Shown here: piece after piece, positions 19,815-47,784 of the stretch
How positions within the stretch are numbered: the stretch's first letter is position 1
Layout: the number at the start of each line of letters is the position of its first letter
NCBI GenBank assembly: GCA_019509785.1
Contig: JAEKLQ010000068.1
Coordinates: 1 to 57,710, forward strand
Direction: 5' to 3'
DNA from: Fibrobacterota bacterium
GTDB lineage: Bacteria; Fibrobacterota; Fibrobacteria; UBA11236
DNA: 57,710 nucleotides
Position numbers and translations under genes: made by a program
The notes under the pieces: model-generated
What the model was told of the DNA's origin: nothing
What the model saw: the letters and a program-made list of their open reading frames with translations, nothing else
Databases searched by the model: none

Positions 19815-20579
19815 ATGCGTTTTCCGGGGATCTTATTGGCCGCCGCCATTTTCGGCGGTTGCTTTACCGAAGTCGGCAATGCGGGCGATGACCGTTTGTT
19901 GGAAGCCCAATTCAGCGTCGACTACTCGCAGCCCGTGAAAGCCCAACCGAAACGGGCCGCCTATACGGCGCCCATCCAGACGGCTACCATCCTGCGTTTC
20001 TACTTGGGCGTGCGCGAGGCCGAGTTCCAGCTGTTCGATTCCGCCACCAACCAGCGGGCGGAATACCATTTATGGAAGGAAGATACGGCCGTTTTACCCG
20101 TGGACTTCACCGGGCATGATCCGGCCGCGTCCTTGCCCGATCAAAAGGTGAGCGGAATCGATCCTTTATCCATGAAGCTGGAATGCGTTCTTCCCGTGCC
20201 CAAGACCTTGAGCTCGACGACCTTGAACTTCGGAACCTTTACCGATCCCGGGTATATCAAAGGCGTGATGTGGGATGGCCGCGATTCCACGGCTTTCCTT
20301 TTCGCATTGCCGTCGGGAAGCGAACTTTCCCTGGCCTACCCGAAATCCATCATTGAAACCTGGTACAGCAGCACGCACTACCGTTGCCAGTTCATCTTTT
20401 ACGCGAACAAATGGATCGCCGCGGCCGACTTGTCCGCCGCGGAGGAAACTCCGGACGTGACCGGACGGAAGGTGATCCTATTGGACGCCAGCCACAATGC
20501 GGCGGCATTCGCCGCGCTCACGACGGCCTTTTCCACCTCTTTCAACGCCCCCAACGTGTATTTGGAGACGCATCCCTAA
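19815..20579 (+). CDS. Fibrobacter-type lipoprotein (CFTEVGN)
   Basis: A 254-residue surface or periplasmic lipoprotein. The signal peptide ends GGC and the mature protein begins CFTEVGN, a motif typical of Fibrobacter lipoproteins encoded beside TIGR02147 genes. The rest is predicted mostly beta (for example ILRFYLGVREAEFQLFDS and KLECVLPVPKTLSSTTLNFG). It starts one base after the regulator stop, so the two are cotranscribed, and converges on the Gx-transporter gene with a 5-bp gap. Function unknown; the pairing suggests a regulator-sensor or regulator-effector unit (inference). Confidence 0.8.
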   Translation: MRFPGILLAAAIFGGCFTEVGNAGDDRLLEAQFSVDYSQPVKAQPKRAAYTAPIQTATILRFYLGVREAEFQLFDSATNQRAEYHLWKEDTAVLPVDFTGHDPAASLPDQKVSGIDPLSMKLECVLPVPKTLSSTTLNFGTFTDPGYIKGVMWDGRDSTAFLFALPSGSELSLAYPKSIIETWYSSTHYRCQFIFYANKWIAAADLSAAEETPDVTGRKVILLDASHNAAAFAALTTAFSTSFNAPNVYLETHP

Positions 20580-31473: not shown

Positions 31474-31572
31474 GCTTCGCTCCGTAGTGAGGATGGGGGA
31501 CGGGAATGCAAAATGGAAAATCGGAGGGGCGGGGACAAGGCGGCCCCATGGATCGAGATGCCTAAAGGGGAC

Positions 31573-31959
31573 TTAAAGGCCGCTGATGGAGACCGGGCCG
31601 TACTTCAATTCGGCTTCCCGGAGGGACGGGAAGATTTCGAAGAGGGAGTCGAGATGGCTGCCTTCCAAAGCGGCTCGGATCTGCGCGGGGACCTCGACGA
31701 GGACCATTTCCATGGCCTTTTCCGCGAAGGCCTGATGTTGGCGGGCGAGGGCGGCCATGGCCGCCGAGTCGATGGAATAGCATCCCTGCAGGCTGAAGAT
31801 CAGCTTGCCGCTCGCATGCGCCAGGGCCCGGTTCAGGATCACGTGCAACTTGGCGGCGTTCCCGCCGGCCAGGTTTCCCGCCACGCGCAGGAAGGTGTTG
31901 GCGCGGCCCACCCCGAGGGTGTAGTTGAGATCTCCGAGGATGACGTCCATGACGGGCAT
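31573..31959 (-). CDS. STAS-domain protein
   Basis: 128 residues from ATG 31959 (GGAGG lies about 12 nt upstream; ATG 31950 is an alternative). The core (KLIFSLQGCYSIDSAAMAAL) fits the STAS/SpoIIAA fold, with the serine of IDS at the position phosphorylated in anti-sigma antagonists. No partner kinase or anti-sigma gene is nearby. Divergent from pyrE by about 160 bp, and 99 bp upstream of the M3 peptidase gene on the same strand. A role in partner switching is plausible but unproven. Confidence 0.7.
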   Translation of the reverse strand: MPVMDVILGDLNYTLGVGRANTFLRVAGNLAGGNAAKLHVILNRALAHASGKLIFSLQGCYSIDSAAMAALARQHQAFAEKAMEMVLVEVPAQIRAALEGSHLDSLFEIFPSLREAELKYGPVSISGL

Positions 31960-32121
31960 AATTCGAGTATACCTCCGGCCCGCGGGGGTGGGAAGATAAA
32001 TGATCGGCAAGCGCCGGCGGCGCGCGGGCGCGGCATCGCCGCGGCAGTTGCTATTTTCCCGGGCGCCGCGGCGGGCCTGTACCGGATGGTACGTGGGAGA
32101 CCGATCGGGCTGGGAAGGTCA

Positions 32122-32808
32122 ATGGAAAACTTCAAGCAATCCTTCATCGAGTTCATGCTGTCGGCGGGGGCCTTGCGCTTCGGGGACTTCACCACCAAGA
32201 GCGGGCGCAAGACGCCTTACTTCATCAATACGGGAGCCTACGTGCGCGCCTCCCAGGCGAAAAGGCTGGGCGAATTCTACGCCCGCGCCATCCACGCCGC
32301 CTTCGGCCGCGAGATCGACAACCTGTTCGGGCCCGCCTATAAGGGAATCCCCCTGGCGGTTACCGCGGCTATCGCCTTGAACGAATTGTACGGGCACGAT
32401 GTCAGCTACACTTTCAATCGCAAAGAGCCCAAGGATCACGGCGAAGGCGGAACCCTGGTCGGTTACAATTACGCTTCCCGCCCCGACCCGGACAAGCCCT
32501 GCCGCGTGGTGATTATCGAGGACGTAACGACCGCCGGAACCTCGATACGCGAAAGCCTGCCCCTGATCGCGTTGCCGGGTATCGAACCGACGGGCCTCGT
32601 GGTTTCCGTGGACCGCATGGAACGCGGCAAGGGGAACCTGCCCGCGCTCAAGGAAATCGAGTCCGAGTTCGGGCTCAAGACCACGGCCATCGTGACCCTG
32701 GAGGATATTTTCTCATTCCTCAAGAGCGGGGCCGGGGAAGTGCATTTGGAGCTTGATCCGCAATTGCTCAAGCGGATGGACGCCTACCGCAAGGAGTACG
32801 GGGCTTAG
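32122..32808 (+). CDS. pyrE: Orotate phosphoribosyltransferase
   Basis: Converts orotate and PRPP to orotidine 5'-phosphate. 228 residues, the family length. N-terminal FGDFTTKSGRKTPYFINTG binds orotate; the PRPP loop is VVIIEDVTTAGTS at 129-141. Start: ATG 32122 with GGGAAGG about 6 nt upstream; the open frame upstream is a shadow of the divergent genes. A single-gene unit convergent with the pel-linked hydrolase gene (33-bp gap). Confidence 0.95.
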   Translation: MENFKQSFIEFMLSAGALRFGDFTTKSGRKTPYFINTGAYVRASQAKRLGEFYARAIHAAFGREIDNLFGPAYKGIPLAVTAAIALNELYGHDVSYTFNRKEPKDHGEGGTLVGYNYASRPDPDKPCRVVIIEDVTTAGTSIRESLPLIALPGIEPTGLVVSVDRMERGKGNLPALKEIESEFGLKTTAIVTLEDIFSFLKSGAGEVHLELDPQLLKRMDAYRKEYGA

Positions 32809-32841: not shown

Positions 32842-35106
32842 CTAAGGGATCCAAAGCCGCGAGAAGGGAGCCTCGCCTTCGGCCCGGACCCAGATCAAGA
32901 CCACGGCTTTCCGCTCGGCGGATCCCGACCAGGTCATTTCCTCTCCCGACAGTCCCGGGCGGTCGAGGAGGACCTTGCCGTCAAGTCCGTAAATGCGGAT
33001 CTCGGCCCGGCCCCTCGGATTGGGGAAACCGATGCTCAGCCCGTCGCCCCGGTTGCTTATGCGTATGGCGCGCGGGATCGCCATTTCCCGCGGTACGATG
33101 CGCTCGGTGTTTCCATGGGTGAAGGAGTAGGAAAAGCCGGTAAGGCCCAGGTCCGGCAGGGTTTCGTGCCGATCGGAAGAAGCCGCGAGCAGATCGATCC
33201 CGGTCCCCGCCGCCTCCAAATCCCGCTTGGCGATACGCAGTTCCAACCGGTTGCCGGAAAACTCCATGACCACGGTGCCTGGGGATTCGGCCCAATCGCC
33301 GTCCTGGTACTTATAGAAGTTTCCCGCTTCCCATTTGTAGTCCGCTCCGTGGAAGCCGCCCCCCACCGCCGCGGGATCGCCGGTATTGCCCCGGCGATCG
33401 GAGTTGAAAAGCAGAACGGTCTTGGCAGGATCGGCATTCCCTTGATACTGAAGCAAGAGGTAGAGGTAATTCTGGTCGTCGGTGGCGGAGAGTCCGGTGA
33501 AATCGACCCCGCTTCCGTCCCCGGACGGGTCGGTAATCGACGTGATGGCTCCCCAATCTCCGAAGGCGCCGTCGATGGAGATCGGGTAGGCGGCCGAATC
33601 CCGCGGTATGGCCATGAGGACCACGCCATTGGTGTCCTCGATGCCGCCGCCCGGCCCGATGCGACCCGAGGCGGGCGCCGCGCCGCTGGTACCGTCCTCG
33701 GCGCGTACCGCGAAGCGGTACAAGGCATTGTTCGCAAGGCCGGTCACGGTGAATTGATAAGGACAGCCATCGTCGGCGCCTTCATGGGCGCGGTCGGTGT
33801 AATCCGCCCCCACCTCGGTCGCCACCGCCTCCAGATGCGGGGACGAGGCGAAATCCAGGGGAGCGTTCTTGGAGTAGTAGACGTTGTACTTCACCGGCCA
33901 GGTCTGATCGGCCGCGACGTCCCAGCGTAGGGTAACCTTCCCGTTACCCGGGATGGCCTTCAGCAAGCCCACCCGGGGCGGCGGGGGGGCGTTCGTATCC
34001 ACGCTTCCGGAAACGGTATTCCGCCATTTGGGCGGATCGCGATCGGCCTGGGCGGGATTGTCGAGGAACAGCGTGGGCGCTTGGCCCAGCAGGCGATCGT
34101 TGACCTCCGGCACCCATCCCTGCTCCACCACCGCCTCCCGCTGGATGGTCCGGAACAAGTCGGGATGATCCTGGAGGATGCGCGCCGGATCGGCCACGTA
34201 GTCGAGGTGGAAAACGGCCCCCCGGCTGTCGGGCCGGTTCATTTCGGCGTTGAGGCGGGGCGCGCTGATGAATTTATTCGACCCGAAGTACGGACTGGGT
34301 TGCCATATCCCGTTCCCCCCTTGGTCCGTGGTGTAATTGCTCCCGGTGTAAAAGCTTTCGAACAGGATTCCATCCACGTATTTCCGCGGGCTCGCCCCGT
34401 ACTGCAAGGGATAATCCGGATCGAAGAAGAAAAGCCCCCGGTTGAGGAGCAGGTACTTCCCAGGGTACGCCAATCGGAGGCGGCGGATCAGATCGGACAT
34501 GCCCGGCGCGGTCCAACCGTAGCCATGCCAGGGATCGGCCGTTTCCGGGGTGTCGAGGAACAGCCCGTCGGCCCCCAGGGCCATCAAGCGCGCCGCCTCG
34601 GTCAGCACCACCCGTTGCCAGGCCGTATCGCCGGCATTGACGAGGCAAGCCCCCCAATCGCCTTGGCGATCCGGGATCCCGTCCGGCACCTTATTCACCC
34701 CGTCCGCGTCCATGCCCTTGGCGTTCCACTCGTCGAGGTAATAGGAAGCGATTCCCTTATTCTCGTAGATGGTGGTAAGGCCCTTTTCGTCATAGTGTAC
34801 GGGCCCGCGGCCATCGCCATGCGCAGGCGCCGCCTGGTTGAACGTGGAGGCGTCTTCGCCGATGGAAATGTAAAGCAAGACCTTGGTGCCGTTCGCGCGT
34901 ACGCGGGCGATGGCTTGGGCCTCCGATTCGGGAGGGGAATACGTTCCCGATTGCAAGGCGACGAGCCCGAAGCGCTGGAAGAGGGCGACATCGCTTTCCT
35001 GCCAAGCGCCATAGTGGGTCAAATGCGAAGTGATGCGCGCGCCGGCCGCCGGCAGGGCGAACCCGATGGCGGCGGTAATGACCGTGAGCCGAAGCGCAAA
35101 TTTCAT
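32842..35106 (-). CDS. Secreted glycoside hydrolase with FnIII, CBM9-like and sorting domains, pel-operon gene 9
   Basis: A 754-residue secreted protein: signal peptide (about 1-22), a TIM-barrel hydrolase domain (about 25-340), FnIII (about 375-490), a CBM9/DOMON-like domain (about 505-660, SIDGAFGDW) and a FlgD-like C-terminal sorting domain (about 680-754). The barrel resembles the hydrolase domain of PelA encoded in the same operon. GLFLDTPE and LLLNRGLFF, then ILFESFYTG align with PelA GFFLDALD, LVLNRGFDL and VAFESLFRG. D185 and E250 are therefore the likely catalytic pair (GH114/GH166-like). Its ATG overlaps the pelG stop (ATGA), making it the last gene of the pel operon. A role in trimming or releasing a GalNAc-rich polysaccharide is inferred. 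Confidence 0.8.
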   Translation of the reverse strand: MKFALRLTVITAAIGFALPAAGARITSHLTHYGAWQESDVALFQRFGLVALQSGTYSPPESEAQAIARVRANGTKVLLYISIGEDASTFNQAAPAHGDGRGPVHYDEKGLTTIYENKGIASYYLDEWNAKGMDADGVNKVPDGIPDRQGDWGACLVNAGDTAWQRVVLTEAARLMALGADGLFLDTPETADPWHGYGWTAPGMSDLIRRLRLAYPGKYLLLNRGLFFFDPDYPLQYGASPRKYVDGILFESFYTGSNYTTDQGGNGIWQPSPYFGSNKFISAPRLNAEMNRPDSRGAVFHLDYVADPARILQDHPDLFRTIQREAVVEQGWVPEVNDRLLGQAPTLFLDNPAQADRDPPKWRNTVSGSVDTNAPPPPRVGLLKAIPGNGKVTLRWDVAADQTWPVKYNVYYSKNAPLDFASSPHLEAVATEVGADYTDRAHEGADDGCPYQFTVTGLANNALYRFAVRAEDGTSGAAPASGRIGPGGGIEDTNGVVLMAIPRDSAAYPISIDGAFGDWGAITSITDPSGDGSGVDFTGLSATDDQNYLYLLLQYQGNADPAKTVLLFNSDRRGNTGDPAAVGGGFHGADYKWEAGNFYKYQDGDWAESPGTVVMEFSGNRLELRIAKRDLEAAGTGIDLLAASSDRHETLPDLGLTGFSYSFTHGNTERIVPREMAIPRAIRISNRGDGLSIGFPNPRGRAEIRIYGLDGKVLLDRPGLSGEEMTWSGSAERKAVVLIWVRAEGEAPFSRLWIP

Positions 35107-36488
35107 GGTTGCCTCATAAAGGTACGGAACTCAAGATCGTGGAGATTCCGGTCCAATGTCCAGAGCCCCGCCAGCACGGCGACGAGCAGGGCCGCGGCGA
35201 AACCGTAACCATAGAACTCGGCCCCCAGGCTCACGCTCGCCATGGTGAAAAGGAGATTCGACGCGAGCAGGAGCGAGGACAGCCCCAACACCGCGCGCCG
35301 TTTGTCGAGATAGAAGAGGACGTTGCACAGCCCCAGGAATACCACCTGCATCCCCGCGGCCACGACGTCGATGTAGAGCAGATGCTGATAGAGTTGGGAG
35401 ATGCCCAGCCAGCGCAGCATGGCCGGGCCCCAGATCATGGCGAAGAGCACGCCCAGGCCCTGGATCTTCGCGATCTCCAGCAACCCCTGCCGGATGGTAT
35501 CCACCATCTCGTCCTTGGCCCCCGCGATTTGCCCCAGGGTGGCGCCCCCATGGATGGCGCCGTAATAATCCTTATGCTTCTCGGCGAAATCGGTTTCCAT
35601 GCGCACCAGGAATACGGCCATCCCGGGCAAGGTGGCGACGTAGGACAGGAAGATGGGGATATCGTAGATGAGGGAGGAGCGCAGCATCCCTATGATGGGC
35701 TGGCCCAGATGCGGCGCGTACCAGAAGTAGGCCTTGTCCGCCCAGATCCCCAGATTGTAGGCCAGGGCGGCGAAGGTGAGGGACGCGTACCAATGCCGCC
35801 GCTCCAGGAAATCGAAACGCACGCTCGCGCCGGCGGACGTCGCCGCCGGAAAGGCGCCCAGGATAAGCCGGAGCATTCCCGTCAGCATCAGGAAATGGCC
35901 CAACAGGAAGCCTCCCAGAAGGCCCTCCAGCCCGCGGGAGCGTAAGGCCAGGGACACCGCCACCACGACCGCGTAACCGATCCCGAACAATCCTACCAAG
36001 GCCAGATAGCGTTTGAGGCCCGAGAGCAGGGAGGCGGAAAGCCAGATGCAGTTCATGGTCACGAAGGACATCACCATGAAGATGCGATAAACCGGGCTCT
36101 GGCCCGGGAAGGCGAAGGCGGCCAGGAGCAGGCCCAGGGCGAAACTGCCTGCGGTGATGAGAGTCAAGGCGCCCAGGAAGGCCGGGCCTACCCGCTCGGG
36201 CTTATTCTCGTATATCCGGTCGGAGGCGTAACGCGTGAAGGACAAGGTCAGGACCCCGCTGAAGACGAGGCTGGCGGCGATGACGTAGGTGACCGAGGTT
36301 TGGAATTGGGTGATGAGCCGGACCGGGATGCCCAGGCGGCGGCCCAGGATATGGATCATGAGGATGCCGGCGAAGGAAAGGATCCAAGGGCCGGAGCCGA
36401 TGACGCCCGCGTACGCATACGCGCGGAAGAAACCCAGGAAGGTATCCCTGCGCAAAAGATCGCGGATGCCGAAACCTATGCCTGCCAT
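35103..36488 (-). CDS. pelG: Pel polysaccharide inner-membrane transporter PelG
   Basis: 461 residues, almost entirely hydrophobic, with about 12 transmembrane helices. The opening MAGIGFGIRDLLRRDTFLG and the early YAGVIGSGPWILSF are characteristic of PelG, a MATE/flippase-like protein that moves the Pel polymer across the inner membrane together with PelD and PelE. It starts 18 bp after pelF and its stop overlaps the ATG of the hydrolase gene by 4 bp. Length and order match the canonical locus. Confidence 0.93.
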   Translation of the reverse strand: MAGIGFGIRDLLRRDTFLGFFRAYAYAGVIGSGPWILSFAGILMIHILGRRLGIPVRLITQFQTSVTYVIAASLVFSGVLTLSFTRYASDRIYENKPERVGPAFLGALTLITAGSFALGLLLAAFAFPGQSPVYRIFMVMSFVTMNCIWLSASLLSGLKRYLALVGLFGIGYAVVVAVSLALRSRGLEGLLGGFLLGHFLMLTGMLRLILGAFPAATSAGASVRFDFLERRHWYASLTFAALAYNLGIWADKAYFWYAPHLGQPIIGMLRSSLIYDIPIFLSYVATLPGMAVFLVRMETDFAEKHKDYYGAIHGGATLGQIAGAKDEMVDTIRQGLLEIAKIQGLGVLFAMIWGPAMLRWLGISQLYQHLLYIDVVAAGMQVVFLGLCNVLFYLDKRRAVLGLSSLLLASNLLFTMASVSLGAEFYGYGFAAALLVAVLAGLWTLDRNLHDLEFRTFMRQP

Positions 36489-36506: not shown

Positions 36507-38099
36507 TCAGGCCAGGGCCTTCCCGTAGATCTCCGCGTAGCGATCCAACATGAGCCGTTCCGTGTAATAACGCTCGACCCGGGTCATGGCGGCGGCGCGG
36601 GCGCGAGACCATTCTTCCTGGTCTTGGTAGAGCCCGGCTATCGCTTCGGCCAAGGCCGCCGGATCGCCTATGCCCACCACCCGGCCCGCCGCGCCGATGG
36701 CTTTATCCTCCGCATCCTCCTCCTTGCCCTGGATCAGCTGCCGGCAGGAGCCTACGTCGGTGGAGACCGCCGGAACCCCCGCGGCGAAGCCTTCCAGCAA
36801 GGTCAAGGGCAGGGCCTCGCTGATGGAACTGAGGACCAGCACGGCGGTTTGCGGCAAAACTTCGTTAACGTCGCGGAAACCGAGGAAGCGGACGGTATCC
36901 GAAAGGCCGAGGGCCTCGGCCAAGGCCTGGCATTCCGCGAAGTAGGCGGGATCTTCGTCGCCCGGGCCGACGATCCAGCCTTCGGCCCGGGGCACCCGCG
37001 CGCGCACCGACCGCATGGCGCGCAAGAAGGTCTTGATATCCTTGATGGGAACCACCCGGCCGATAAGGGTGAAGATGGGCTTCGGCGGGATCGCCTGCCG
37101 GGATCGTAAGGGCTGGAAGCGTTCCAGGCGGATGCCGTTCGGGATGGAGATGGCCCGGTCGGCGGCGGCGCCATCCTGGATTTGCTGTTGGCGGATTCCT
37201 TGGTATAGGGAGATAACGGGATCGGCCGCAGCGTAGGCCGATTTCCCCAAGGCCTCGAAGAAGCGGATCCAGAGCCGGCGGATATAGCTGCCTTCCGGCC
37301 CTTCGGCGCCCAGGCTTCCCCCGGCCGGCTTTGCGCCCGGGGTCCCGCCGCCCGGCGCCTCGCTGCCCGGCGCCTCGCCGCCCGGCGCCTCGCCGCCCCC
37401 CTCGATCCATGCGCTTTGCAGCAGATCGATCTTGCGTTCTTTCGTGTACAAGCCATGCTCGGTCAGGACGAACGGCCGCTTGCGCGCTTGCGAGAGCAGC
37501 GCGCCCAGGAACCCGGCATAGCCGGTCGATACGCTGTGGTAGCAACGGGCCGGTATGAGTCCGCGCGCGATGCGCGCCAGGGCCCATACGGGATCGTGCA
37601 TGGAGCGGATGGTCCAGAAATAATCCAGGAAGGACGAATCGGGAGCGTGATCCCGGTAATAGGCGGTGATCATGTCCCAGGCTTCCCGCGAGCCTTGGAA
37701 CTGGCCTTCGCCGAGCCGCCCCGCCAAGAGATGATCCGCGTTGGCGGCGAGCACGTGGGCCGGGCAACCGCCGGGCGCGGCGAAGCCTTCGTGCATGGCG
37801 CGCATGTCGGCGAATGCGTGAGGGTCGACCCGGGTCTCTTCGCGGGGCTTCGCTCGGGACCGGTCGTAAAGGTAATGCACTTCCAGATGCACCAGGTTCG
37901 GTGGCAACTCGTAACGGATGCCTTTATACGCGCCCGGCTCGCTGCCAAGGAAGACCGCCGCGAAGCGGATTTCCGGGAAGCCTTGGATCAAATGATGGAC
38001 CCAGGCGGAGACGCCCCCGCGGACGAAGGGGTAGGTGCCTTCGAGCAATAAGGCGACGTCGGCGGATGCGGCGGTGGGAATCTTGGGGGTGGTCGGCAT
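36507..38099 (-). CDS. pelF: Pel glycosyltransferase PelF (GT4)
   Basis: A cytoplasmic GT-B enzyme that polymerises Pel from UDP-sugar. The N-terminal lobe opens with LLEGTYPFVRGGVSAWVHHL, the PelF hallmark. The C-terminal lobe holds PIKDIKTFLRA, GPGDEDPAY and the EX7E motif in SEALPLTLLEGFAAG. At 530 residues it is slightly longer than typical, because a Gly/Ala/Pro/Glu-rich insertion (bases 37336-37395 and flanks) lies in the linker region after ERKIDLLQSAW. One base separates it from pelE. Confidence 0.93.
   Translation of the reverse strand: MPTTPKIPTAASADVALLLEGTYPFVRGGVSAWVHHLIQGFPEIRFAAVFLGSEPGAYKGIRYELPPNLVHLEVHYLYDRSRAKPREETRVDPHAFADMRAMHEGFAAPGGCPAHVLAANADHLLAGRLGEGQFQGSREAWDMITAYYRDHAPDSSFLDYFWTIRSMHDPVWALARIARGLIPARCYHSVSTGYAGFLGALLSQARKRPFVLTEHGLYTKERKIDLLQSAWIEGGGEAPGGEAPGSEAPGGGTPGAKPAGGSLGAEGPEGSYIRRLWIRFFEALGKSAYAAADPVISLYQGIRQQQIQDGAAADRAISIPNGIRLERFQPLRSRQAIPPKPIFTLIGRVVPIKDIKTFLRAMRSVRARVPRAEGWIVGPGDEDPAYFAECQALAEALGLSDTVRFLGFRDVNEVLPQTAVLVLSSISEALPLTLLEGFAAGVPAVSTDVGSCRQLIQGKEEDAEDKAIGAAGRVVGIGDPAALAEAIAGLYQDQEEWSRARAAAMTRVERYYTERLMLDRYAEIYGKALA
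37336..37395 (-). repeat. 15-bp tandem repeat within pelF
   Basis: Four head-to-tail 15-bp units; the last three are nearly identical (CCCGGCGCCTCGCTG, then twice CCCGGCGCCTCGCCG) and the first is degenerate. On the coding strand they encode GGEAP-type pentapeptides in a flexible loop. In-frame unit length means copy-number change would not shift the frame. Confidence 0.85.
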
Positions 38100-38100: not shown

Positions 38101-39159
38101 TCAGCGATCCCGTCCCAGCCAGAACCGGATCACCGGCTCCAAAGGGCCGCCCTGGCTTTGCCCGCGCAGTTCCGCGAGGTGGCCGCGAACGGCGGCGAAG
38201 TCCCCCTTTTGGAAATCGGATTCGGCGCGATGCGGAAGCAGCCGAGAGGCCTGCGCCCCGGATCCGGCCGCATCGGCGAAGGCGCTTTGCGCGGAGTCCC
38301 AGGCTCCCAGGCGCGCCAGGATACGGCCCTTCAAGAGGGCCATGAATGCGTCCCCGGGATCCAGATCCAGGAGTTCCTGGGCGGCAGGCAAGGCTTGTTC
38401 GAGATGGTGCCGGGAAACCTCCCCGTCCGCCAGTTCCTGGTAGGCGGCTTCCCAGTGGAGGAAGGCCACTCGCCGCAGGGCGGCCCGGCGGCCGGGCCCG
38501 TACCCCGCTTCGCGCAAGACCGCATGGGCGGCCGAGAGGGAGGCCTGGGAATCCCGTTCCATGCGCTCCAAGGCGGCGTATGCCGCCAAGCGCAGTTCAT
38601 CGACGGGATCGCGCAACATTTCCTTGAGCAGGCGGTTCCCGCGGGGGCTGGAGCGTCGGCGGATGGCAAGTAAGGCGCCCATGCGTTGCTGCGCCGGCGT
38701 ACCGCGCGCCAGCAAGCGGGCGCGGAATCCGCCCGGGCCATGGCGCGCGGGGTAAACGGGGAAGGCGATCCGCGCGCGATCATCGCGAAGGATCCCGTAC
38801 GACCGTCGTCCCGGTTTCGCTTCCCTGGACAAGGCCGGGAGCGCCCCGAATACGATCCCGAGCATGCCCAGCAAGGGCAATGCGAAGGAAAAAGCGAAGA
38901 CGAAGATCGTGAACCATCGCCGGCCCGCGTCTCTGCCCTGGGCCGGAAGGAAGGCGAGGCCGAACAAGGCGCAAGCGGCGAAATGGAGCAGGAGCAGGGG
39001 GAGCATGGGCGCGGAGCCGGCGGGCGCCCCCAGGAAATCCCGGGCCGTTACCGCTTCCACGGTCATGGCCGCCGCGGCCGCCAGGATGCGCGCCAGCCGT
39101 ACCATCTGTAATACCGGGATACGCGGGGGCGGAAGGGAATCTTGAGAACCATTATTCAT
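38101..39159 (-). CDS. pelE: Pel inner-membrane TPR protein PelE
   Basis: 352 residues: two transmembrane segments near the N-terminus (about 45-75 and 85-110) and a helical cytoplasmic region with TPR-like repeats (for example LLDLDPGDAFMALLKGRILARLG). Layout and position between pelD and pelF identify it as PelE, which bridges PelD and PelF at the membrane. Sequence identity is poorly conserved in this family, so the call leans on synteny. The ATG overlaps the pelD stop by 4 bp. Confidence 0.82.
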   Translation of the reverse strand: MNNGSQDSLPPPRIPVLQMVRLARILAAAAAMTVEAVTARDFLGAPAGSAPMLPLLLLHFAACALFGLAFLPAQGRDAGRRWFTIFVFAFSFALPLLGMLGIVFGALPALSREAKPGRRSYGILRDDRARIAFPVYPARHGPGGFRARLLARGTPAQQRMGALLAIRRRSSPRGNRLLKEMLRDPVDELRLAAYAALERMERDSQASLSAAHAVLREAGYGPGRRAALRRVAFLHWEAAYQELADGEVSRHHLEQALPAAQELLDLDPGDAFMALLKGRILARLGAWDSAQSAFADAAGSGAQASRLLPHRAESDFQKGDFAAVRGHLAELRGQSQGGPLEPVIRFWLGRDR

Positions 39160-40484
39160 GGTTTCCTTCCCGTTGCCATCCGCGGGGCGAGGTCTACGGA
39201 CGCTTCCAATGATGCGAGGAAGTCGGATAATTCCCGCACGGGTTCGTTCCGGGTCAGCGCCTTCACTTGCGTCCGCCCCGGTCCGCCCGGCAGCCTGGCG
39301 AGCGCGGCCCTAGCCTGCTCTTCGCCGCAGAAAGGCATCAACAGGATCAAGGCGATGCTTCCGTCCTGGGCTTCGCGGCGCCAGGTCAGATCGGCTCCGC
39401 GCCTGGGCGCGGGGATTTCCCCTTCGGAACCGGCGGGCGCGATCCGCGCCGCCAAGACGCCCGGCACGCCGGACGTGGCCTGCAAGCGGTGGAGGCGCAA
39501 GTATCCTGCCGCGAATTCGGGGGGGCAATCCGGCGCTTTCGCGATCACTTGCGCGGCCAGGGCTCCGGCGGCCAGGGTGTCCGCGTAATATCCGAGGGCG
39601 GCGAAGAGGCCGCGGAGGTTTTCTTCCTGGAAGGCGAAGAAGGGCATCTTTTCCACGGCCAAGACGGCCAGGATGGGTCCTCCTACCGCGGCAACGGGGG
39701 CGGCGAACAGATAGGGTCCGGGCGCTCCTGCCGGAGCGGGCGCACCTGGGGGTGCGGGCGCTCCCGCGTCTTCGAGGGCATGGCAAAGGGATCGGGTTTC
39801 CAGGCAGGCGGCGATCAATTTTTCCCTTCCGTCGAGACGGCGGGCGTGGCCCAAGGCCGCGATGGGGTCGGCCCGCAGCCCATCTTCTTCCATAAGGTGG
39901 AGCGCGGCGGTTTCGAGTTGGAAGAAGCGCGCCAGGAAAACGAGCAGGGCTTGCGCGGATTCGGCGTCCAGCCGGCCGGAGGCGGCGCGGGGGATTTCGG
40001 CGAGGGCGTCCCGCAGGGTGGGGGGATGCCCGATGAAATCGGTCATGAGCCTTTCATGCGATTCCGCCAACACGTGGTGGGCGCGCCCCAGCTCGTCCAG
40101 GCGCAGGCCGAGATGTTCGCGGGTCTTGCGTTCCTTGCGTACCTCGGCCAATCCGAGATCGCGGAACTCACCGCACAGGAAGGTGGTTATGAAACCTCCC
40201 AGGAAAAAGCCGCGGGGAAAATCCATCCCTCGCGCGGCCGTAAGGCTCCAACCGGCGGCCAGGGTCAGGGAAGCGATCAGGGCCGCGGCCGAGCCGTAGC
40301 GCAAGGCCGCCAGTATGGGAACCAGCCAGATCCAAGGGAAGGGCGCGGCCAGGAAGAACGGGTCCTTGGGCCGCAGCCAAAGGCAAAGCATAAGGCAGAA
40401 CGCCGGCAACAGGACGGACTCCGCCGCGGCGGGGAGGAAGGATCGCTCCTTCATTTCCTCGCGGGACTGCCGATTCAGGAACAT
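39156..40484 (-). CDS. pelD: Pel c-di-GMP receptor PelD
   Basis: 442 residues: N-terminal transmembrane helices (about 18-110), a coiled segment, a GAF domain (about 170-320) and a degenerate GGDEF domain (about 325-430). An RxxD motif, R362-G-A-D365, is followed by DLTWRREAQDGSIALILLMPF. This closely matches the position of the inhibitory-site RxxD (367-370) that binds c-di-GMP in Pseudomonas aeruginosa PelD. Pel secretion here is therefore probably gated by c-di-GMP. An odd Gly/Ala/Pro-rich insertion (GAPAPPGAPAPAGAPGP) lies in the GAF domain. Starts 7 bp after pelC. Confidence 0.88.
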   Translation of the reverse strand: MFLNRQSREEMKERSFLPAAAESVLLPAFCLMLCLWLRPKDPFFLAAPFPWIWLVPILAALRYGSAAALIASLTLAAGWSLTAARGMDFPRGFFLGGFITTFLCGEFRDLGLAEVRKERKTREHLGLRLDELGRAHHVLAESHERLMTDFIGHPPTLRDALAEIPRAASGRLDAESAQALLVFLARFFQLETAALHLMEEDGLRADPIAALGHARRLDGREKLIAACLETRSLCHALEDAGAPAPPGAPAPAGAPGPYLFAAPVAAVGGPILAVLAVEKMPFFAFQEENLRGLFAALGYYADTLAAGALAAQVIAKAPDCPPEFAAGYLRLHRLQATSGVPGVLAARIAPAGSEGEIPAPRRGADLTWRREAQDGSIALILLMPFCGEEQARAALARLPGGPGRTQVKALTRNEPVRELSDFLASLEASVDLAPRMATGRKP

Positions 40485-40491: not shown

Positions 40492-41022
40492 TCAATTGCA
40501 CGAGATGGTCGCCTTGGACACCATATTCTTGATGAGCTTCAAACCCACGCCGCTCAAGGCATCGTTGCTCCAACCGGTTTTCGCGCCTCCCGCGCTCCAG
40601 ATGCCTTTGCCGCTTTCCACGTCCACCACTTCCAAGGTCAGGCCCACCGCGGGTTCGCCGTCCATGCCGCTCTTGTAGCGCCACTCCGTCACCGAGCCGG
40701 TCACCGCATAGCGGGCGTTCTGCCCCTTGGCCCAATCCAGGGCCCGCTCGTATTGCCCTTGGCTCATGCCGTACTCGCCCAAGCTGTCGTCGAGGGAGGA
40801 CGGGTAATAGTGGAGATCGGCCAGCCCCCGGCTGCGCAAGGCGTTCTCCACGATGCGGGCGACCGCCGGACCCGCTTGCGGCGTCTCGGAATAATTGTGG
40901 AACGGCAGCACCGCCCACTTTTCCGAGCAGGACATGGCCGGCGAGGCGCTGTGCTGGATCGGGGAGCAACCGGCCAAGGCGGCGGCGATCAGGCAGACCG
41001 CCGTTTTCATGCATGGATTCAT
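40492..41022 (-). CDS. pelC: Pel outer-membrane lipoprotein PelC
   Basis: 176 residues with a lipobox (AALAGCSPI). The mature region (WAVLPFHNYSETPQAGPAVARIVENALRSRGL) is the PelC/CsgG-like domain that forms a periplasmic ring around the PelB barrel. Start: ATG 41022, with GAGG about 8 nt upstream, 10 bp after pelB. The nearby in-frame ATG 41010 is a less well-placed alternative. Confidence 0.93.
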   Translation of the reverse strand: MNPCMKTAVCLIAAALAGCSPIQHSASPAMSCSEKWAVLPFHNYSETPQAGPAVARIVENALRSRGLADLHYYPSSLDDSLGEYGMSQGQYERALDWAKGQNARYAVTGSVTEWRYKSGMDGEPAVGLTLEVVDVESGKGIWSAGGAKTGWSNDALSGVGLKLIKNMVSKATISCN

Positions 41023-41032: not shown

Positions 41033-43930
41033 TCATCTGAAAGTGCAAGCGTAGTTCAAGGATAATGCGGATTCGGATTCGTTGCGGGTCAGGAGGCCGC
41101 TCGCGTACTCGGCGAGAGCGGTGATCCTTTGCGCGGCGGAAGGCTTCAGGGTGAATCCCGCCCGGACCGCCAATTCATTGGCCCATGCCCCCGGTCCTTC
41201 GGATCCGGGATCGGGAAAATAGTTCCGTCCCAGTTCGAAGGACGCGGTCGGAGAGGGGAGCCAACCGGCTTCCGGCCGGGTCCGGTCCTGCCATTCCAGG
41301 TAGGCCGAACCGTGCCAAAAGGTTTGGGGGAATTCCTTCGGCGTAAGCAGTCCGCCAATCAGGGAAATCCCTTTCGGCCCCGGCATGGCTTGGGCCGACG
41401 CGAAACCGTTGTAGGCGAAACTGGTGCCCGCCGACAGCGATGGCAAAAGGCGGTGCTCGACGACGACGCGCGCCAAGGCGCCTTCGCCCAACCAACGGCG
41501 GTCCCAAGAGCGGAATCCGGCGCGGGCCAGATGCAGATCCAAATCGACTTCGGCCGGCAGGGAAAGGTGCAAGCCGCCCCGCCAGCATTCTTTCACCGCC
41601 GCGATGGCCAGGATGGGATTTTCTTCCGCGAGCGCGTTCCGGTCATAGCCGGCGATGATCGAAACCTCACGCATCGGACGCCAGTCCTGCTCGGCGGTCA
41701 CGGAATAAAGCGGATCCCGGGAGCCGCCCACGGCGGCGGCGGAAGTCGAGCGGATGCCTGCCGCCAGACGGGTGGTTCCATGCCGGGTTACACGCTTGAG
41801 TTCCAGGTTTCCGGCGTCTTCCCGATCGGGAACCGTCACGTCGAGGTCTTTCGAGATCCATGGCCGCCGGCGCGTTTCCGCGTGCGCGCTCAAAAGGACT
41901 CCCGCGCCCATGGGCCGGTCGCCCTGCAAGACCGCCTTCTCCTCATCGTAAAAAAGATGGCGGTCCGCCTCGTATCCGCCGCCGATGCCGGCGGCCCCGC
42001 GCAAGGCCCGGATGCCGGTGGGCTCGGGAATGGAGGCCAGGCCCATGCCGCCTTCGCCGGCGTACCCCGCCGCCGCCCGGGCGTTCCCCAAAAAGGCCGC
42101 CGCGCGGGCCTTGTCCTCCGCGCCCAATCCCGCTTCCTTGTTGTCCAGCAGATCGGCGACCTTGCCTACGTTCTCGGTCCGCATGGCCACCGCCAACTGG
42201 GCCCAAGCGGGGAAATCCTTTTCACCGGTCCCGGCGCCGCCCAGGGCGGCCATGGCATCCTCGGGGTTTTCCCCGCGGTCGACCCTCCAGGAGAATGCCG
42301 CTTCCTTGCTGCCCGAGCCGCCCTTGAATTGCCGGTTCAAGGCCGCCATGCGGCCGGCCGTTTCATCGCTGGAGCCGAACTTCCATGCCCAACGCGCCTC
42401 CGCTTCGAGCCATTCCCGGCCTTGCCGATCGTCCCCGGGAGCCGGTGGCGCCCGCATCGCTTCCCCTGCGCGCCGATATGCGCGCAGGGCGCCTTGCCCA
42501 TCGCCGGCCTCCTCAAGGATCTCGGCGTAACTCAAGAGGAACGGGAAATCGGGATGCTCCCCTTCCCGGTCCAGCAATCGGAAATACGCCAAAGCCTCGC
42601 GATGGCGTTGCAACAACTTGTTGGCCATGGCCAGGGGCTCGAGAAGGGATTGCGGCGTGGCGGGACCGCGGTTCCAGCGATCGGCATAGACCGCCAGATC
42701 CGAGAGGCGGCTTTGCTCGATCAGCAGCCACAGGTATCCCGATTGGAAATCCTCGGAACCGGGTTCTTGCGAAAGGGCGCGCTGGAATTCCCGGCGGGCC
42801 AAAGCGGGCTTACCTTCCTTCTGATGGATCCGCGCCGCCAGCACGTAAAAGTAGGGCGCGTCCGTGAACAGGGCCCATTGATCCGGGGTCAAGCCGGCCA
42901 AGGCGCGCGAGGCCAGATCCCAGCGATCGACTTCGATGCATCGCTCCAGGTAATACACCAACATATCTGGTTCACGGAACTTGGCCCATCCCGCGACTGC
43001 GGCGCGCATGGCCAGGTCCGGATCGCGCAAGCGGGCCAGCCCGTTCAGATCCCGCAAATCCGCGGCGTCATAACGCCCGCTTTCGAAAAGCGCCCGATAG
43101 GCCTTGAGGGCGTCCCCGTACCTCTGCATCCAAACGTATGCGGAAGCCTGGAGGCGCAAGATAGGGATCCGTTCGGCCTCGCCCGTGGCCAGGCCATGCA
43201 CGGCATCCAGGACCGCCGCGGCCTCCCGGATGCGGCCCCGGCGGCTGTAGATTTCAGCGCGACGGAGCCCGATGGCGGGGGAGTTCCCGTATTGCGAGGC
43301 CATCGTTTCCAGCGTCTTCAGGGCTTCCGCATCCCGGTCCGTACGCTCCAGGAGTTCGATCAGCTTAAGCGTGAGCACGGAATCGGGGCGGCCGGCCAGG
43401 CGCTTCCGCAAACGTTCGATGCCCTTCCCGGGCTCGCCGCTGTTTTCGTAGGCATCCAGAAACTGGCTCCACTCCGCCGCGTCCAGATCCTGCTCGGCGG
43501 CGATCCCTTCCCAAGCCCGCACCGACGCGTTGTAATCCCGCAAGGCCGCTGCCAGGCGCACGGCCTCGCGATAGGCCTCCCCGCGACGGCCATGCGCGCC
43601 CAGGTATTCCCACTCGCGCAGGGCCAGGGCGGGGTCCCCGGCCCACTCCGCGGTCTTGGCCAGGCGTTCCCGCCAAGCGGAAAGCTCCGGGCGTTGGCGC
43701 ACCGCCTCCTTCGCCAACTCGAAGGCGTCCTTGACGTTGCGCGCCGCCAGGAAAACATCGTATGCCAGCGCGTAAACGGTATCGTTGAAGGCGCGGAAGG
43801 GCTTGGCGCCCGTAACATCGGAGTTACCGGAGGCATCCGCCTCTGGAATGCCGGCCGAAAGGGCGGGCCAGGCGAACGTCAAAATCGCGGCCGCCGACAG
43901 GATCAGCAGGCCGCTTCCGGTATGCCTCAT
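41033..43930 (-). CDS. pelB: PelB C-terminal half: periplasmic TPR domain and outer-membrane barrel
   Basis: 965 residues with its own signal peptide (LLILSAAAILTFAWPALSAG). Multiple TPR repeats span about 45-600. From about 650 onward the sequence turns beta-rich (GAGVLLSAHAETRRRPW, then FWHGSAYLEWQDRTRPEAG) and ends in an aromatic-terminated strand (LSLNYACTFR), as expected of the porin that exports Pel. In Pseudomonas one PelB chain of about 1,190 residues also carries the inner-membrane anchor; here that part is a separate upstream gene whose stop overlaps this ATG by 4 bp. Combined length is about 1,259 residues. Confidence 0.88.
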   Translation of the reverse strand: MRHTGSGLLILSAAAILTFAWPALSAGIPEADASGNSDVTGAKPFRAFNDTVYALAYDVFLAARNVKDAFELAKEAVRQRPELSAWRERLAKTAEWAGDPALALREWEYLGAHGRRGEAYREAVRLAAALRDYNASVRAWEGIAAEQDLDAAEWSQFLDAYENSGEPGKGIERLRKRLAGRPDSVLTLKLIELLERTDRDAEALKTLETMASQYGNSPAIGLRRAEIYSRRGRIREAAAVLDAVHGLATGEAERIPILRLQASAYVWMQRYGDALKAYRALFESGRYDAADLRDLNGLARLRDPDLAMRAAVAGWAKFREPDMLVYYLERCIEVDRWDLASRALAGLTPDQWALFTDAPYFYVLAARIHQKEGKPALARREFQRALSQEPGSEDFQSGYLWLLIEQSRLSDLAVYADRWNRGPATPQSLLEPLAMANKLLQRHREALAYFRLLDREGEHPDFPFLLSYAEILEEAGDGQGALRAYRRAGEAMRAPPAPGDDRQGREWLEAEARWAWKFGSSDETAGRMAALNRQFKGGSGSKEAAFSWRVDRGENPEDAMAALGGAGTGEKDFPAWAQLAVAMRTENVGKVADLLDNKEAGLGAEDKARAAAFLGNARAAAGYAGEGGMGLASIPEPTGIRALRGAAGIGGGYEADRHLFYDEEKAVLQGDRPMGAGVLLSAHAETRRRPWISKDLDVTVPDREDAGNLELKRVTRHGTTRLAAGIRSTSAAAVGGSRDPLYSVTAEQDWRPMREVSIIAGYDRNALAEENPILAIAAVKECWRGGLHLSLPAEVDLDLHLARAGFRSWDRRWLGEGALARVVVEHRLLPSLSAGTSFAYNGFASAQAMPGPKGISLIGGLLTPKEFPQTFWHGSAYLEWQDRTRPEAGWLPSPTASFELGRNYFPDPGSEGPGAWANELAVRAGFTLKPSAAQRITALAEYASGLLTRNESESALSLNYACTFR

Positions 43931-44811
43931 GGGCGGGGCCCGGAAGCGATGGGCTTGACCAAAAGTTGGGCGTAACGTTGGGCCTGGCCGGGCCGATCGG
44001 CGGCTTGGGCCAAACGTACCAGGAAAAGCAGTACCTCGGTGTCGCCGCTCCATTCCCGCATGCGGCTGTCGGCGGCGGCCAGGGCTTCGTCCAGTCGGCC
44101 GCAGGCTTGCAAGTCGCGCAAGCCGTCCAGGAACGCGGATTTGCGCTCCGCCGCATCCTTCAGTACCGCCCCGTCCTTCCGGCCATCCAGGGCCGCGAAA
44201 AGCGCCGCCGAGGCCCCCTGGCAATCGCCCGCGGCCCGGCTCATTTCCGCCGAGCGACGGTACCAGGCCGGGTGAAGCGAATCCGCGCCCGCGGCCCGCA
44301 GGTATAACTTGGCGGCCAGATCATACGCGCCGCCGGCTCCCGCCTTTTCCCCGGCCCAGGCCAGATGCGACGGCGTCCCTCCTTGCAGCAATTCTTCCCC
44401 CGCCGTCCGCAAGCGCGCCGCGGCATTCGCGTCCTTGCCTGATGCGGAGGAGAAGGCCCAGGAGGCGACCTCGATTTCCAGCATCCACAAGCTGTCCCGC
44501 GGACTTCCGCGATCCGTTTGCAAGCGATCGAACTCCGCGAAGGCTCCCGCGTAATCCCCCGTGAGCCCGAGTTGGCGGATATATTCGCGCCGCAAGGGAA
44601 ACCCCTTTTCCCCTTTCGCCAGCAGGCTGCGCAAAAGCAGCACGCGCACGCTGTCCCCATGATCGGCATCGCCCCCGCCCCCGCCCCCGAGTTGCTGGAA
44701 GACCGAGGCCTTCGGGAAAATCAGGACGATGATCATGAGCATGGCCGCCCCGAAGAGGGCCAAGGCCCAAGGGGGCAAGAGACGGCGGCGGGGAAGATGG
44801 GACGGGCTCAT
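43927..44811 (-). CDS. PelB N-terminal half: membrane-anchored TPR protein
   Basis: 294 residues from ATG 44811, which overlaps the pelA stop (ATGA). One transmembrane helix (WALALFGAAMLMIIVLIF, about 14-31) is followed by TPR-like repeats such as REYIRQLGLTGDYAGAFAEFD. This equals the N-terminal anchor and first TPRs of PelB from Pseudomonas. Both ends are coupled to pelA and to the second pelB half. Because the second half has its own signal peptide, the split looks established rather than a recent frameshift. A Gly-rich linker (GGGGGGD) follows the membrane helix. Confidence 0.83.
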   Translation of the reverse strand: MSPSHLPRRRLLPPWALALFGAAMLMIIVLIFPKASVFQQLGGGGGGDADHGDSVRVLLLRSLLAKGEKGFPLRREYIRQLGLTGDYAGAFAEFDRLQTDRGSPRDSLWMLEIEVASWAFSSASGKDANAAARLRTAGEELLQGGTPSHLAWAGEKAGAGGAYDLAAKLYLRAAGADSLHPAWYRRSAEMSRAAGDCQGASAALFAALDGRKDGAVLKDAAERKSAFLDGLRDLQACGRLDEALAAADSRMREWSGDTEVLLFLVRLAQAADRPGQAQRYAQLLVKPIASGPRP

Positions 44812-47591
44812 GGGCAGTCCGCCTCGATACGGGCCTTGCGAGAGGCGATGCGGAAGGTTTGGCGATCGCCGGGGCCGGCTTTCCCGCCCACGGGCGCGCC
44901 ATCGGCCTTGATCCGGCACCGCCCGGCCCCTCCCAACGAAAAGACGAGATCCAAATGGCCTTCCAGCGTCATGCTAAGGCGCCGCCCGTCCGAGGCCCAA
45001 TCCGAAAGAACGGCATTGGCGGCGGCCAGGTAAGGCCGTTCCGGGGGTTTGGGGGAGAGAACCAATTTGCACGTCGCTCCGGATAGGTGGATGTAGCGCG
45101 ACTCCCCGGCGTCGGCGTAGCCGATCACGCCTTCCGAACGGGCCAAATCCGGATATCCCATGGATGCCGGGATACGCAATTCCCTGAGCGATCCCCCGCC
45201 TTGGATGAGCCATGCCTCGCCTGAGCGAGCAAGCGCCATGCCGTTGAAGTCGAGGACCTTGGCGGTATATTCGGATACGTAGACGTTATAGAGCTCGCGA
45301 CCCAGCGCCCAGTCATACACCTTCTTCAGGGCCTTCAGGGAGGCTTCCTTGGAGCCCGAGTAGCTGTGGTAATAGATGTCCACGGGCTTGAAGCGGACTG
45401 GCTTATCGGTACGTTCGAAGGTTTCGATCACGTTTTCGTACCCGTAAAAAGGGCCGGTCCATTCATTGGTGTACATGTTTTCGTTCTGGTTCGGGGCGTA
45501 CACCTGGAAAAACCCGCCCTTGTTCAGCCCTATGGGGGCGATGCCGGTCCAGCTATCGCTCGAGGCCGTGATCACCGTCTCGCCGCCGTTCATATTGGCT
45601 ACCCCGGCGGCATAGGTCAATCCGACGGTGCGGGAATCCGGATTGCAATTCCCGGACCAAAGCAGAACCTTGCAGGTTTTGCCGGGAGGGGCCAGTTCCT
45701 TGTTGATGTAGTCGATGGACCCGCCCACTTCCCGTTGCATTAGATCGGGCCCGAAACGGAATCCGGGAATGTCCAAGTGGTTCTCTTTCCCTTCCTTGCC
45801 GCCGCGCGCGAATCGGCCCCAATTGAAAGGGTGGGAATAGGTATGGCTGGCGATCTCGATCTGGGGGAGCGCCAGGATCCGTTTGGCGACAGGCAAGGTC
45901 TGCGGGCTGGATTGGGGATACATACCCTTGGGCGCCACCTCCCCTTCGATGACGGAGAAGGTCGTGGCGAAGGGATACTTGGAGAGGACTTCCTGCTCCA
46001 GGACTTCCCCGGCGAAGGGATGGGGGACCCAATCCGCCCGGTTGGCGAATCCGTCCCCGTCCACGTGGACCATCAGCAAACGCGTACCGTTCTCGGTGGT
46101 GATATCGGGCGCGGGCAATACCGGCAGGCGCAGGGCCTGCGCCAGGAATTCCATAGGCTGCGTCACCCATCTTTCCAGTCGATTGTCCGGCAGGGTCCGC
46201 ATCAGGAAGGGAGACAGGACGTAACCGCCCCAGGGCGTGTAGGCCGCGGCCACCATGGTGTCCCCGCGTACGCCGGCGATTTGGAGCAGAGGCTTCCCGG
46301 CCGCGATGCGCAAGGGCCGGAAGGCGCGGGCGTCGGGGAGCGGCTCCATCTCGAAGTGCATCACCTTTTCGGACTGCACCAGTCGCACTACCGTGTCCTT
46401 GGCGGAAGCCCGCGAAGGCCGGAAGCCGAATGCCTGGGCGTGGGGGCCGGTCCACGAGAAAGGGAGCTCGCCCCAAAAAACGATTTTCATCCCCTCGGCG
46501 GATTGGGCAACCAACCAGGTAGCCATCGCCGAGCTGACCGGAGGGGTTCCGCCCGCTTGCCAGCAAAGGATGCCGGCGTAGCGGCCTGCCAGCGGGAAGT
46601 TCGGCGGAGGAAGACGGATGTCGCGGAATTCCGGGATGTAACCCAGGTAGGTGAGCATGGGATCGGCATTGCGGTGGATGGCCAATTCGTCGAGATCGCC
46701 GCCCTCCTCCCCGTCGTACAGCATGAGGATCCGGCGGGGCACCGCTTCCACGGAGCCTACCCCGAGCATGTCCAGGCCCGGCGTGGTCACCCACGGTACC
46801 AGCCCCACGTCCCGGATCCGTTCCGCCGTGGCGCGCATCAGATCGCGATCGGAAGCGGGCACGTAATCGATGGCGATGGCCGGTAAGCCATATTTTTTGG
46901 TAACCTGGCCGGCCTTGTCCAACAGGTAGAAGCGGTCCTGCTCGGATACCTCGGTGAACTTCCCGCGCGCGGCATCCCATCCCCGAAAAAGCGATTCGAA
47001 GGCCACAGCGTAGATTTGCTCATGGATTTCCGGCAGCAGATCGAAGCCCCGGTTCAGAACCAGGCGGGCCTCGGGATAAGCCTTCTTGATGCGGCGGATC
47101 ACCGCTATGAGGCCTTTTTCCTGCCGGGCCCGCTCTTCCGGCGACTTCACGTACAATTCATAAGAATCAAGGGCGTCCAGGAAGAAACCACGATATCCCC
47201 GTTTCCATAGCGGAACGATGACATGCGCCAAATAAAAATCAGGCCACGCTTCCGCCGTTTGATCGAGAACGGCGGAGCCCCAGGCGGGATTTTCGCCCAG
47301 GATCCATTGCTTGGGGATTTTACGGTAATAGTTCCGGCTGCGGTGGACTTCGCCCAAGGCTACGTAGGCTATCCAGCGATTGGCGGAGGCCGAATCCCCG
47401 GGTCCGAAAACGGGCGCAGGGCCATTCACGTGATCCGGTTCGAGGATGACATGATCGAAAACGCGAAGCTCCTGCAAGGGAGGATTCGCTCCATAATAGA
47501 ATGCGAAAGACTTCTGGGTGGTCGTGGCGCAAACGCTGACAGGGAGTGCGGCAAACCAAAGCCAGAAGCGAAAGCTTTGGCGAACGGACAC
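44808..47591 (-). CDS. pelA: Pel hydrolase/deacetylase PelA
   Basis: A 927-residue periplasmic bifunctional enzyme. Signal peptide (about 1-22), a GH166-type hydrolase domain (about 28-290) with likely catalytic D139 (GFFLDALD) and E199 (VAFES), a central domain, then a polysaccharide deacetylase domain (about 495-800). Deacetylase metal and catalytic residues are D511 and D513 (VHVDGDGF) and H583 and H587 (SHTYSH). These are exactly 17 positions before D528, D530, H600 and H604 of Pseudomonas PelA, so both activities should be intact. Start: GTG 47591, the only in-frame start that preserves the signal peptide, just after GCGGG; a stop lies upstream. First gene of the operon. Confidence 0.94.
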   Translation of the reverse strand: MSVRQSFRFWLWFAALPVSVCATTTQKSFAFYYGANPPLQELRVFDHVILEPDHVNGPAPVFGPGDSASANRWIAYVALGEVHRSRNYYRKIPKQWILGENPAWGSAVLDQTAEAWPDFYLAHVIVPLWKRGYRGFFLDALDSYELYVKSPEERARQEKGLIAVIRRIKKAYPEARLVLNRGFDLLPEIHEQIYAVAFESLFRGWDAARGKFTEVSEQDRFYLLDKAGQVTKKYGLPAIAIDYVPASDRDLMRATAERIRDVGLVPWVTTPGLDMLGVGSVEAVPRRILMLYDGEEGGDLDELAIHRNADPMLTYLGYIPEFRDIRLPPPNFPLAGRYAGILCWQAGGTPPVSSAMATWLVAQSAEGMKIVFWGELPFSWTGPHAQAFGFRPSRASAKDTVVRLVQSEKVMHFEMEPLPDARAFRPLRIAAGKPLLQIAGVRGDTMVAAAYTPWGGYVLSPFLMRTLPDNRLERWVTQPMEFLAQALRLPVLPAPDITTENGTRLLMVHVDGDGFANRADWVPHPFAGEVLEQEVLSKYPFATTFSVIEGEVAPKGMYPQSSPQTLPVAKRILALPQIEIASHTYSHPFNWGRFARGGKEGKENHLDIPGFRFGPDLMQREVGGSIDYINKELAPPGKTCKVLLWSGNCNPDSRTVGLTYAAGVANMNGGETVITASSDSWTGIAPIGLNKGGFFQVYAPNQNENMYTNEWTGPFYGYENVIETFERTDKPVRFKPVDIYYHSYSGSKEASLKALKKVYDWALGRELYNVYVSEYTAKVLDFNGMALARSGEAWLIQGGGSLRELRIPASMGYPDLARSEGVIGYADAGESRYIHLSGATCKLVLSPKPPERPYLAAANAVLSDWASDGRRLSMTLEGHLDLVFSLGGAGRCRIKADGAPVGGKAGPGDRQTFRIASRKARIEADCP

Positions 47592-47784
47592 CCCGCAAAT
47601 TTACTCAATGAATCATGTTTTCAAATCAGCAAAAAGCGGCGGCCTTCTCCCAAAAGCGAAATCAAACCGGACATTAAAAAATGGTCAGATTAAGGTAACG
47701 TACCGGTGGACCGCCGGGCTCGCCGGTGTACCGGATGGGACAGTGTCCGGAACCGGTATTGTTATCTTCCTTGGCTCCCAGCCC
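47592..47784. promoter_or_regulatory. Divergent pelA/creB intergenic region
   Basis: 193 bp between the pel operon (leftward) and the cre operon (rightward). The pelA-proximal half is AT-rich and the creB-proximal half GC-rich, with a direct repeat of CCGGTG (near 47704 and 47724) and nearby GTACCGG. Both promoters must lie here. I cannot place a -10/-35 pair confidently. I see no TTCAC-N6-TTCAC pair, the Cre tag of E. coli. Confidence 0.45.

Follow-up and report, generated by a model that had tools for sequence, protein, structure and literature searches.

The reason why Pel systems have hydrolases is understood only in part. Pel is a GalN/GalNAc polymer. In P. aeruginosa, the single hydrolase is joined to a deacetylase that Pel production also requires; because of this fusion, the role of the hydrolase in that species had to be deduced from point mutants. 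A locus encoding a further, apparently exported hydrolase apart from PelA would allow trimming during export and remodeling of the finished matrix to be tested separately. The stretch of DNA analyzed here (the window, 57,710 nucleotides, one contig of a 5.4 Mb, 96% complete draft genome of a soil-type Fibrobacterota bacterium) raises the question of what a hydrolase-like gene, ORF9, does in a pel operon that also encodes PelA. The operon is arranged as follows.

32842..35106, minus strand: ORF9, with a likely signal peptide, a GH166-like barrel, a probable FnIII domain, an all-beta domain and a C-terminal beta domain
35103..36488, minus strand: pelG (Pfam PelG, E 6e-139)
36507..38099, minus strand: pelF (Pfam DUF3492 and GT4)
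38101..39159, minus strand: pelE, assigned by position, with TPR
39156..40484, minus strand: pelD (Pfam PelD_GGDEF, E 5e-10)
40492..41022, minus strand: pelC, assigned by position; small lipoprotein, LpoB-like
41033..44224, minus strand: pelB, TPRs and outer-membrane barrel (B-barrel_PelB_C, E 2e-14); true start inside the ORF
43927..44919, minus strand: TPR protein, probably the N-terminal portion of PelB encoded separately; same gene in a genus-mate; true start inside the ORF
44808..47591, minus strand: pelA, encoding a hydrolase region, in which D139 and E199 are intact, and a deacetylase region

ORF9 is open over all its 754 codons (754 amino acids, no internal stop), starting at 35106 and ending at 32842 on the minus strand. 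At the junction, the TGA stop of pelG and the ATG of ORF9 share an ATGA overlap, read in the sequence. With pelA, the split pelB, and pelC to pelG all on the same strand, ORF9 is the ninth gene when the split pelB is counted. The next gene downstream, a phosphoribosyltransferase gene on the plus strand (31399–32808), is convergent, so the operon ends at ORF9, which is the last gene of a complete pel operon. The PelA encoded in the window matches the full-length PelA 9cgy at E 1e-179. Promoter and terminator scans around ORF9 gave nothing clearly above expectation. The pelB gene of the window looks split in two, one product being a short membrane/TPR protein and the other carrying TPRs and the barrel; a genus-mate MAG has an identical split.

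A search of 61 genomes returned one other full-length match to ORF9, in this genus-mate MAG, at 56% identity over residues 5–746. There too the gene comes after pelG, overlapping it by ATGA, in an operon of identical order. The coupling to pelG and the operon membership asserted in the first-pass annotation are thus seen in two genomes. Between ORF9 and the ortholog, codon positions 1, 2, and 3 differ in 35, 27, and 59% of cases, a bias as for a constrained protein. In the phylum, pelG was above cut-off in 3 of 168 genomes: that of the window, the genus-mate, and one genome of another family. Among genus relatives, every pelG carrier has ORF9 and no pelG-less one does. ORF9 stands next to pelG in both pel operons of the genus and is missing beside pelG in the single more distant case, the genome of the other family, where a separate contig holds a stand-alone PelA-hydrolase gene followed by a deacetylase-type gene. 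Co-directional with the pel genes, overlapping one of them, and kept in relatives, ORF9 has the marks of a pel-operon component, seen as such in two genomes only. A scan of the genome collection with narrow patterns likewise had the genus-mate as its sole match. The viral contigs searched held no relatives, and the phages searched gave just one chance-level match. In the genus-mate, pelA (L007, about 17745–20398) carries an in-frame TAG within its hydrolase domain and loses the frame ahead of the deacetylase part, which may be an assembly error or real PelA decay beside an intact ORF9; ORF9 and the remaining operon are open despite the broken pelA.

The identity of the protein depends on its N-terminal barrel.

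34072..35037, minus strand: GH166-like barrel, about residues 24–345, from profile comparisons

A Pfam search of the barrel gave no match, and a single-sequence search against PelA structures reached E 0.16, near noise. A profile of the two orthologs, run against the window's own genome, had PelA as its only other match (E 0.001). By tblastn against plasmids, Deinococcus proteins named 'endo alpha-1,4 polygalactosaminidases' matched ORF9 with E down to 3e-14, and the best of them in turn hit hydrolase domains of PelA with E of about 1e-20 to 1e-23. When PelA and Deinococcota relatives were combined in a profile that left ORF9 out, this profile found ORF9 at E 5e-21 (Z = 100,000) and reported none of 3000 shuffled barrels, a similarity well above chance; a profile of PelA domains only found it at 1.6e-8. 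With hhalign, the ORF9 barrel scored 98.0% (E 2e-13) against PelA GH166, 99.3% against the enzymes of Deinococcus pel loci, and 99.7% against PelA together with the free-standing Deinococcota relatives. These profile comparisons establish that the barrel is homologous to the hydrolase domain of PelA, and ORF9 belongs by sequence homology to the endo-alpha-1,4-galactosaminidase superfamily (GH114/GH135/GH166/GH191). As to the (beta/alpha)8 barrel expected of this superfamily, the AlphaFold model of the barrel, made with two sequences, had low confidence (pLDDT 41.5), and its best PDB match was the PelA hydrolase domain at E 0.03 only; the C-terminal half reached pLDDT 46.7. The low model confidence follows from having only two sequences in the alignment, and the fold searches made with these models carry correspondingly little weight.

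Within the superfamily, ORF9 occupies a place of its own. In the tree, five fused PelA domains form a clade (support 100/99) with ORF9 outside, so that ORF9 is not a member of the PelA hydrolase clade (GH166); it forms a long branch whose place among the GH166-like branches is without resolution. The nearest relatives found by profile are the free-standing Deinococcota enzymes. The likeness to the PelA domain proposed in the first-pass annotation is therefore upheld as homology, but PelA is not the closest relative found. Of the two families named there for comparison, the GH166 domain of PelA gave a match and GH114 did not: GH114 proper was rejected, with no Pfam match to ORF9, 13.5 bits for the ortholog against a cut-off of 27 (PF03537), and 17% by hhalign with a strict GH114 set. 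GH191 as the best home was also set aside, at 9.6 bits against a cut-off of 181 for TIGR01370/TM1410, 89% by hhalign, and an HMM E of 0.007. That ORF9 is a recent, decaying duplicate of the pelA hydrolase domain would explain the fold and motifs common to ORF9 and the PelA of the same operon, yet the long branch outside the well-supported PelA clade, the intact ortholog, and the codon-position bias of a constrained gene speak against it. The tree and the intact ortholog rule out this origin, to which we assign next to no probability.

Whether the barrel could cut a polymer depends on its active site, for which the alignments mark the following.

34552..34554, minus strand: codon of Asp185, aligned with P. 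aeruginosa PelA Asp160
34357..34359, minus strand: codon of Glu250, aligned with P. aeruginosa PelA Glu218
34657..34851, minus strand: enlarged segment after beta3, residues 86–150, with DADGVNKVPDGIPD; from the alignment, conserved in the ortholog

D185 and E250 share alignment columns with D139 and E199 of the window's PelA, the pairing that the first-pass annotation had drawn by eye. The catalytic pair of P. aeruginosa PelA is D160/E218 (PMC12022489), in agreement with a distance of 58 residues between the two in the 5TCB sequence. Alanine variants at the matching positions of P. thermotolerans PelA, D149 and E207, gave no biofilm disruption (PMC12022489). In a 17-row alignment, D185 is invariant, 15 rows have Glu in the E250 column out of 16 with a residue there, and Gly83, Trp163, Asn222, Arg223, Asp302, and Tyr303 show little or no variation. 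ORF9 thus has the catalytic Asp (after beta4) and the Glu in register, as the superfamily has them. Both ORF9 and its ortholog retain the pair and the neighboring residues, which weighs against the idea that ORF9 serves to bind the matrix or as an anchor, its barrel holding Pel uncut and fixing the polymer to the surface. This idea, which we consider improbable, draws on the several beta domains and the possible sorting tail described below, and on a related protein lacking the catalytic Glu: a CBM9 plus GH166-like protein on a Thermus brockianus plasmid (L021, 7068–8462), at a distance of roughly 7 kb from pelF, carries Ser at that position and may be an inactive, binding version.

Around the conserved center, ORF9 differs from PelA. 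Its insertions comprise about 55 residues after beta3, 9 following the NRG motif, and others ahead of the LDY strand, and it has a D-to-E change three residues past the catalytic Asp. The segment after beta3 holds DADGVNKVPDGIPD, which is similar to calcium-binding loops, although this likeness is only a resemblance; the segment is largely conserved in the ortholog. The long branch, enlarged loops, and D-to-E change could mean another specificity. ORF9 might accordingly keep the fold and have another substrate or reaction, for example chain-linking transglycosylation or cleavage of another polysaccharide. The roughly 55 extra residues lie at the beta3-alpha3 insertion thought to bind substrate, the other two insertions point the same way, and a GH114 enzyme with weak transglycosylation has been reported (PMC12054363). 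Placement in the pel operon argues to the contrary, as do the substrates of the characterized families in the superfamily, which are without exception GalN/GalNAc polymers (PMC12054363), and we give a changed reaction or substrate only a small chance.

The remainder of the protein bears on where it would act.

35038..35106, minus strand: likely Sec signal peptide, residues 1–23, judged by eye (basic start, hydrophobic stretch, A-x-A end)
33682..33984, minus strand: FnIII domain, about residues 375–475 (Pfam fn3, E 0.11; ortholog 9e-4)
33127..33639, minus strand: all-beta domain with a DGxFxDW start, about residues 490–660, at whose start lies a Firmicu_CTERM match
32845..33069, minus strand: C-terminal beta domain, a possible T9SS-type sorting tail, residues 680–754 (weak profile match)

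The ortholog has a likely signal peptide of the same type, which agrees with the earlier description of ORF9 as secreted. The FnIII domain, also named there, is supported mainly through the Pfam match of the ortholog. The Firmicu_CTERM match at the start of the all-beta domain has E 0.02 in ORF9 and 2e-4 in the ortholog. A CBM9-like label for this domain found no confirmation: there was no Pfam CBM9_1 match, and comparison with Deinococcota CBM9 regions by hhalign gave 0.6%. The sorting-type C-terminus found weak support. Against a profile of this genome's T9SS-type tails, the ORF9 tail scored a weak 12 bits (E 0.03), above all 2000 shuffles. With TIGR04183 (type A sorting tail), ORF9 was not among the above-cut-off matches in its own genome, and the ortholog reached E 0.1. 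The window's genome contains the T9SS translocon SprA and about 20 proteins whose type A sorting tails exceed the cut-off. T9SS export of ORF9 is plausible on these sequence features.

Comparison with known systems shows which parts of this arrangement have precedent. The PelA GH166 domains (P. aeruginosa 5TCB and the window's own, encoded in the same operon as ORF9) share the homologous barrel with its Asp/Glu pair in register. Unlike them, ORF9 lies outside the PelA clade, is a separate gene without a deacetylase, has enlarged loops, adds FnIII and further beta domains, and is probably exported beyond the periplasm. The free-standing GH166-like enzymes of pelF-bearing Deinococcus loci (L018, L020, L022, L027) are the best profile match and resemble ORF9 as separate genes in a pel-type locus; they have a single domain of about 250–300 amino acids, unlike the modular ORF9, and their loci carry an Agd3-like deacetylase instead of a PelA-type fusion. 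Three of these loci, on plasmids (L018, L020, L022), combine pelF, sugar-nucleotide genes, the Agd3-like (fungal GAG-type) deacetylase, and the free-standing GH166-like gene, which is followed by a second galactosaminidase, of GH114 type in D. ficus and D. sp. QL22 and of GH191 type in D. aquaticus. GH191 (TM1410, Env-GH191) is in the same superfamily with a weaker match to ORF9, and Env-GH191 cuts Pel (PMC12054363). In Gram-positive bacteria, PelA_H-like genes flank the pel operons (PMC7112168), like ORF9 a separate PelA-hydrolase-like gene beside pel; PelA lacks the hydrolase domain there, and PelA_H is commonly divergently transcribed (PMC7112168). Deletion of PelA_H in B. cereus gave more biofilm biomass (PMC9894940). 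Proteobacterial pel plasmids had one matching place per record, PelA itself, and no extra copy at that search sensitivity.

An extra galactosaminidase beside a pel locus therefore has precedent, and the statement in the first-pass annotation that no standard pel locus has such a gene is too broad in view of the two adjacent galactosaminidase-type genes of the Deinococcus pelF loci and the Gram-positive PelA_H genes. It stands in a narrower form: the literature compared describes no second hydrolase in a full pelABCDEFG operon with an intact PelA hydrolase and this domain make-up. Enzymes of this type are known, but a position within a complete pel operon and a modular build like that of ORF9 are unusual.

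The second group of relatives raises another use for the enzyme. CBM9 plus GH166-like proteins of Deinococcus and Thermus (L017, L019, L021) gave the best single-sequence match and are modular and secreted like ORF9; their CBM9 precedes the barrel, and the beta domain of ORF9 is not detectably the same. On two Deinococcus plasmids (L017, 9239–19809; L019, 7254–15623), such a gene heads an operon with sugar ABC transporter, SIS-domain, aldolase, and sugar-kinase genes; these operons look like pathways using GalN/GalNAc polymers as food, a setting unlike that of ORF9. ORF9 could by analogy be an active galactosaminidase for a foreign polymer (fungal galactosaminogalactan or the Pel of other bacteria) in feeding or competition, its co-transcription being incidental. 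Besides these relatives opening operons that resemble GalNAc uptake and catabolism, the action of PelA_h on the fungal polymer as well (PMC12054363) fits a foreign target. ORF9 nevertheless sits inside the pel operon with a start-stop overlap in both genomes, and no AgaS match was found in the window's genome, which slightly disfavors a feeding role. We judge a foreign target unlikely.

We infer instead that ORF9 is probably an exported endo-alpha-1,4-galactosaminidase that works outside the cell on Pel made by the same cell, as a complement to the periplasmic PelA; this covers its secretion route, activity, substrate, location, and physiological role. An exported protein co-transcribed with the synthesis genes would have, as its simplest target, the polymer already outside the cell. 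The ATGA coupling to pelG in two genomes supports an own-Pel role, as do relatives sitting in pelF-bearing loci and apparent GalNAc-catabolism operons, and all characterized families of the superfamily cut polymers of this kind (PMC12054363). Counting against it, ORF9 is seen in two genomes only, the signs of its export route are weak, and the PelA of the operon already supplies a hydrolase; within the superfamily, TmGH191 showed no detectable activity (PMC12054363). In the proposed mechanism, ORF9 would be made from the pel operon together with the Pel synthesis genes. Periplasmic trimming of Pel falls to PelA, and ORF9 would act on exported Pel at the cell surface or in the matrix, with catalysis through Asp185 and Glu250 as in PelA. 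The enlarged segment after beta3 may shape the substrate groove, and FnIII with the following beta domains may hold the enzyme on the matrix or surface. One would then expect a smaller share of Pel to stay attached to cells and more of it to be released, the matrix to soften, or dispersal to follow. PelA hydrolase activity leads to secreted low-molecular-weight Pel and lower adherence (PMC9894940).

A broader proposal, which we advance tentatively and hold to be doubtful, is that such proteins form a separate endo-galactosaminidase family working on exported, deacetylated Pel in remodeling or dispersal, with cutting in some Gram-negative pel systems split between periplasmic PelA and a T9SS-exported surface enzyme. 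With ORF9, a group of biofilm-degrading enzymes that has few characterized members gains a divergent branch. Just upstream of pelA, and divergent from it, the window also holds a response regulator gene and an adjacent sensor-kinase-like gene (47518–49983), which may control the operon.
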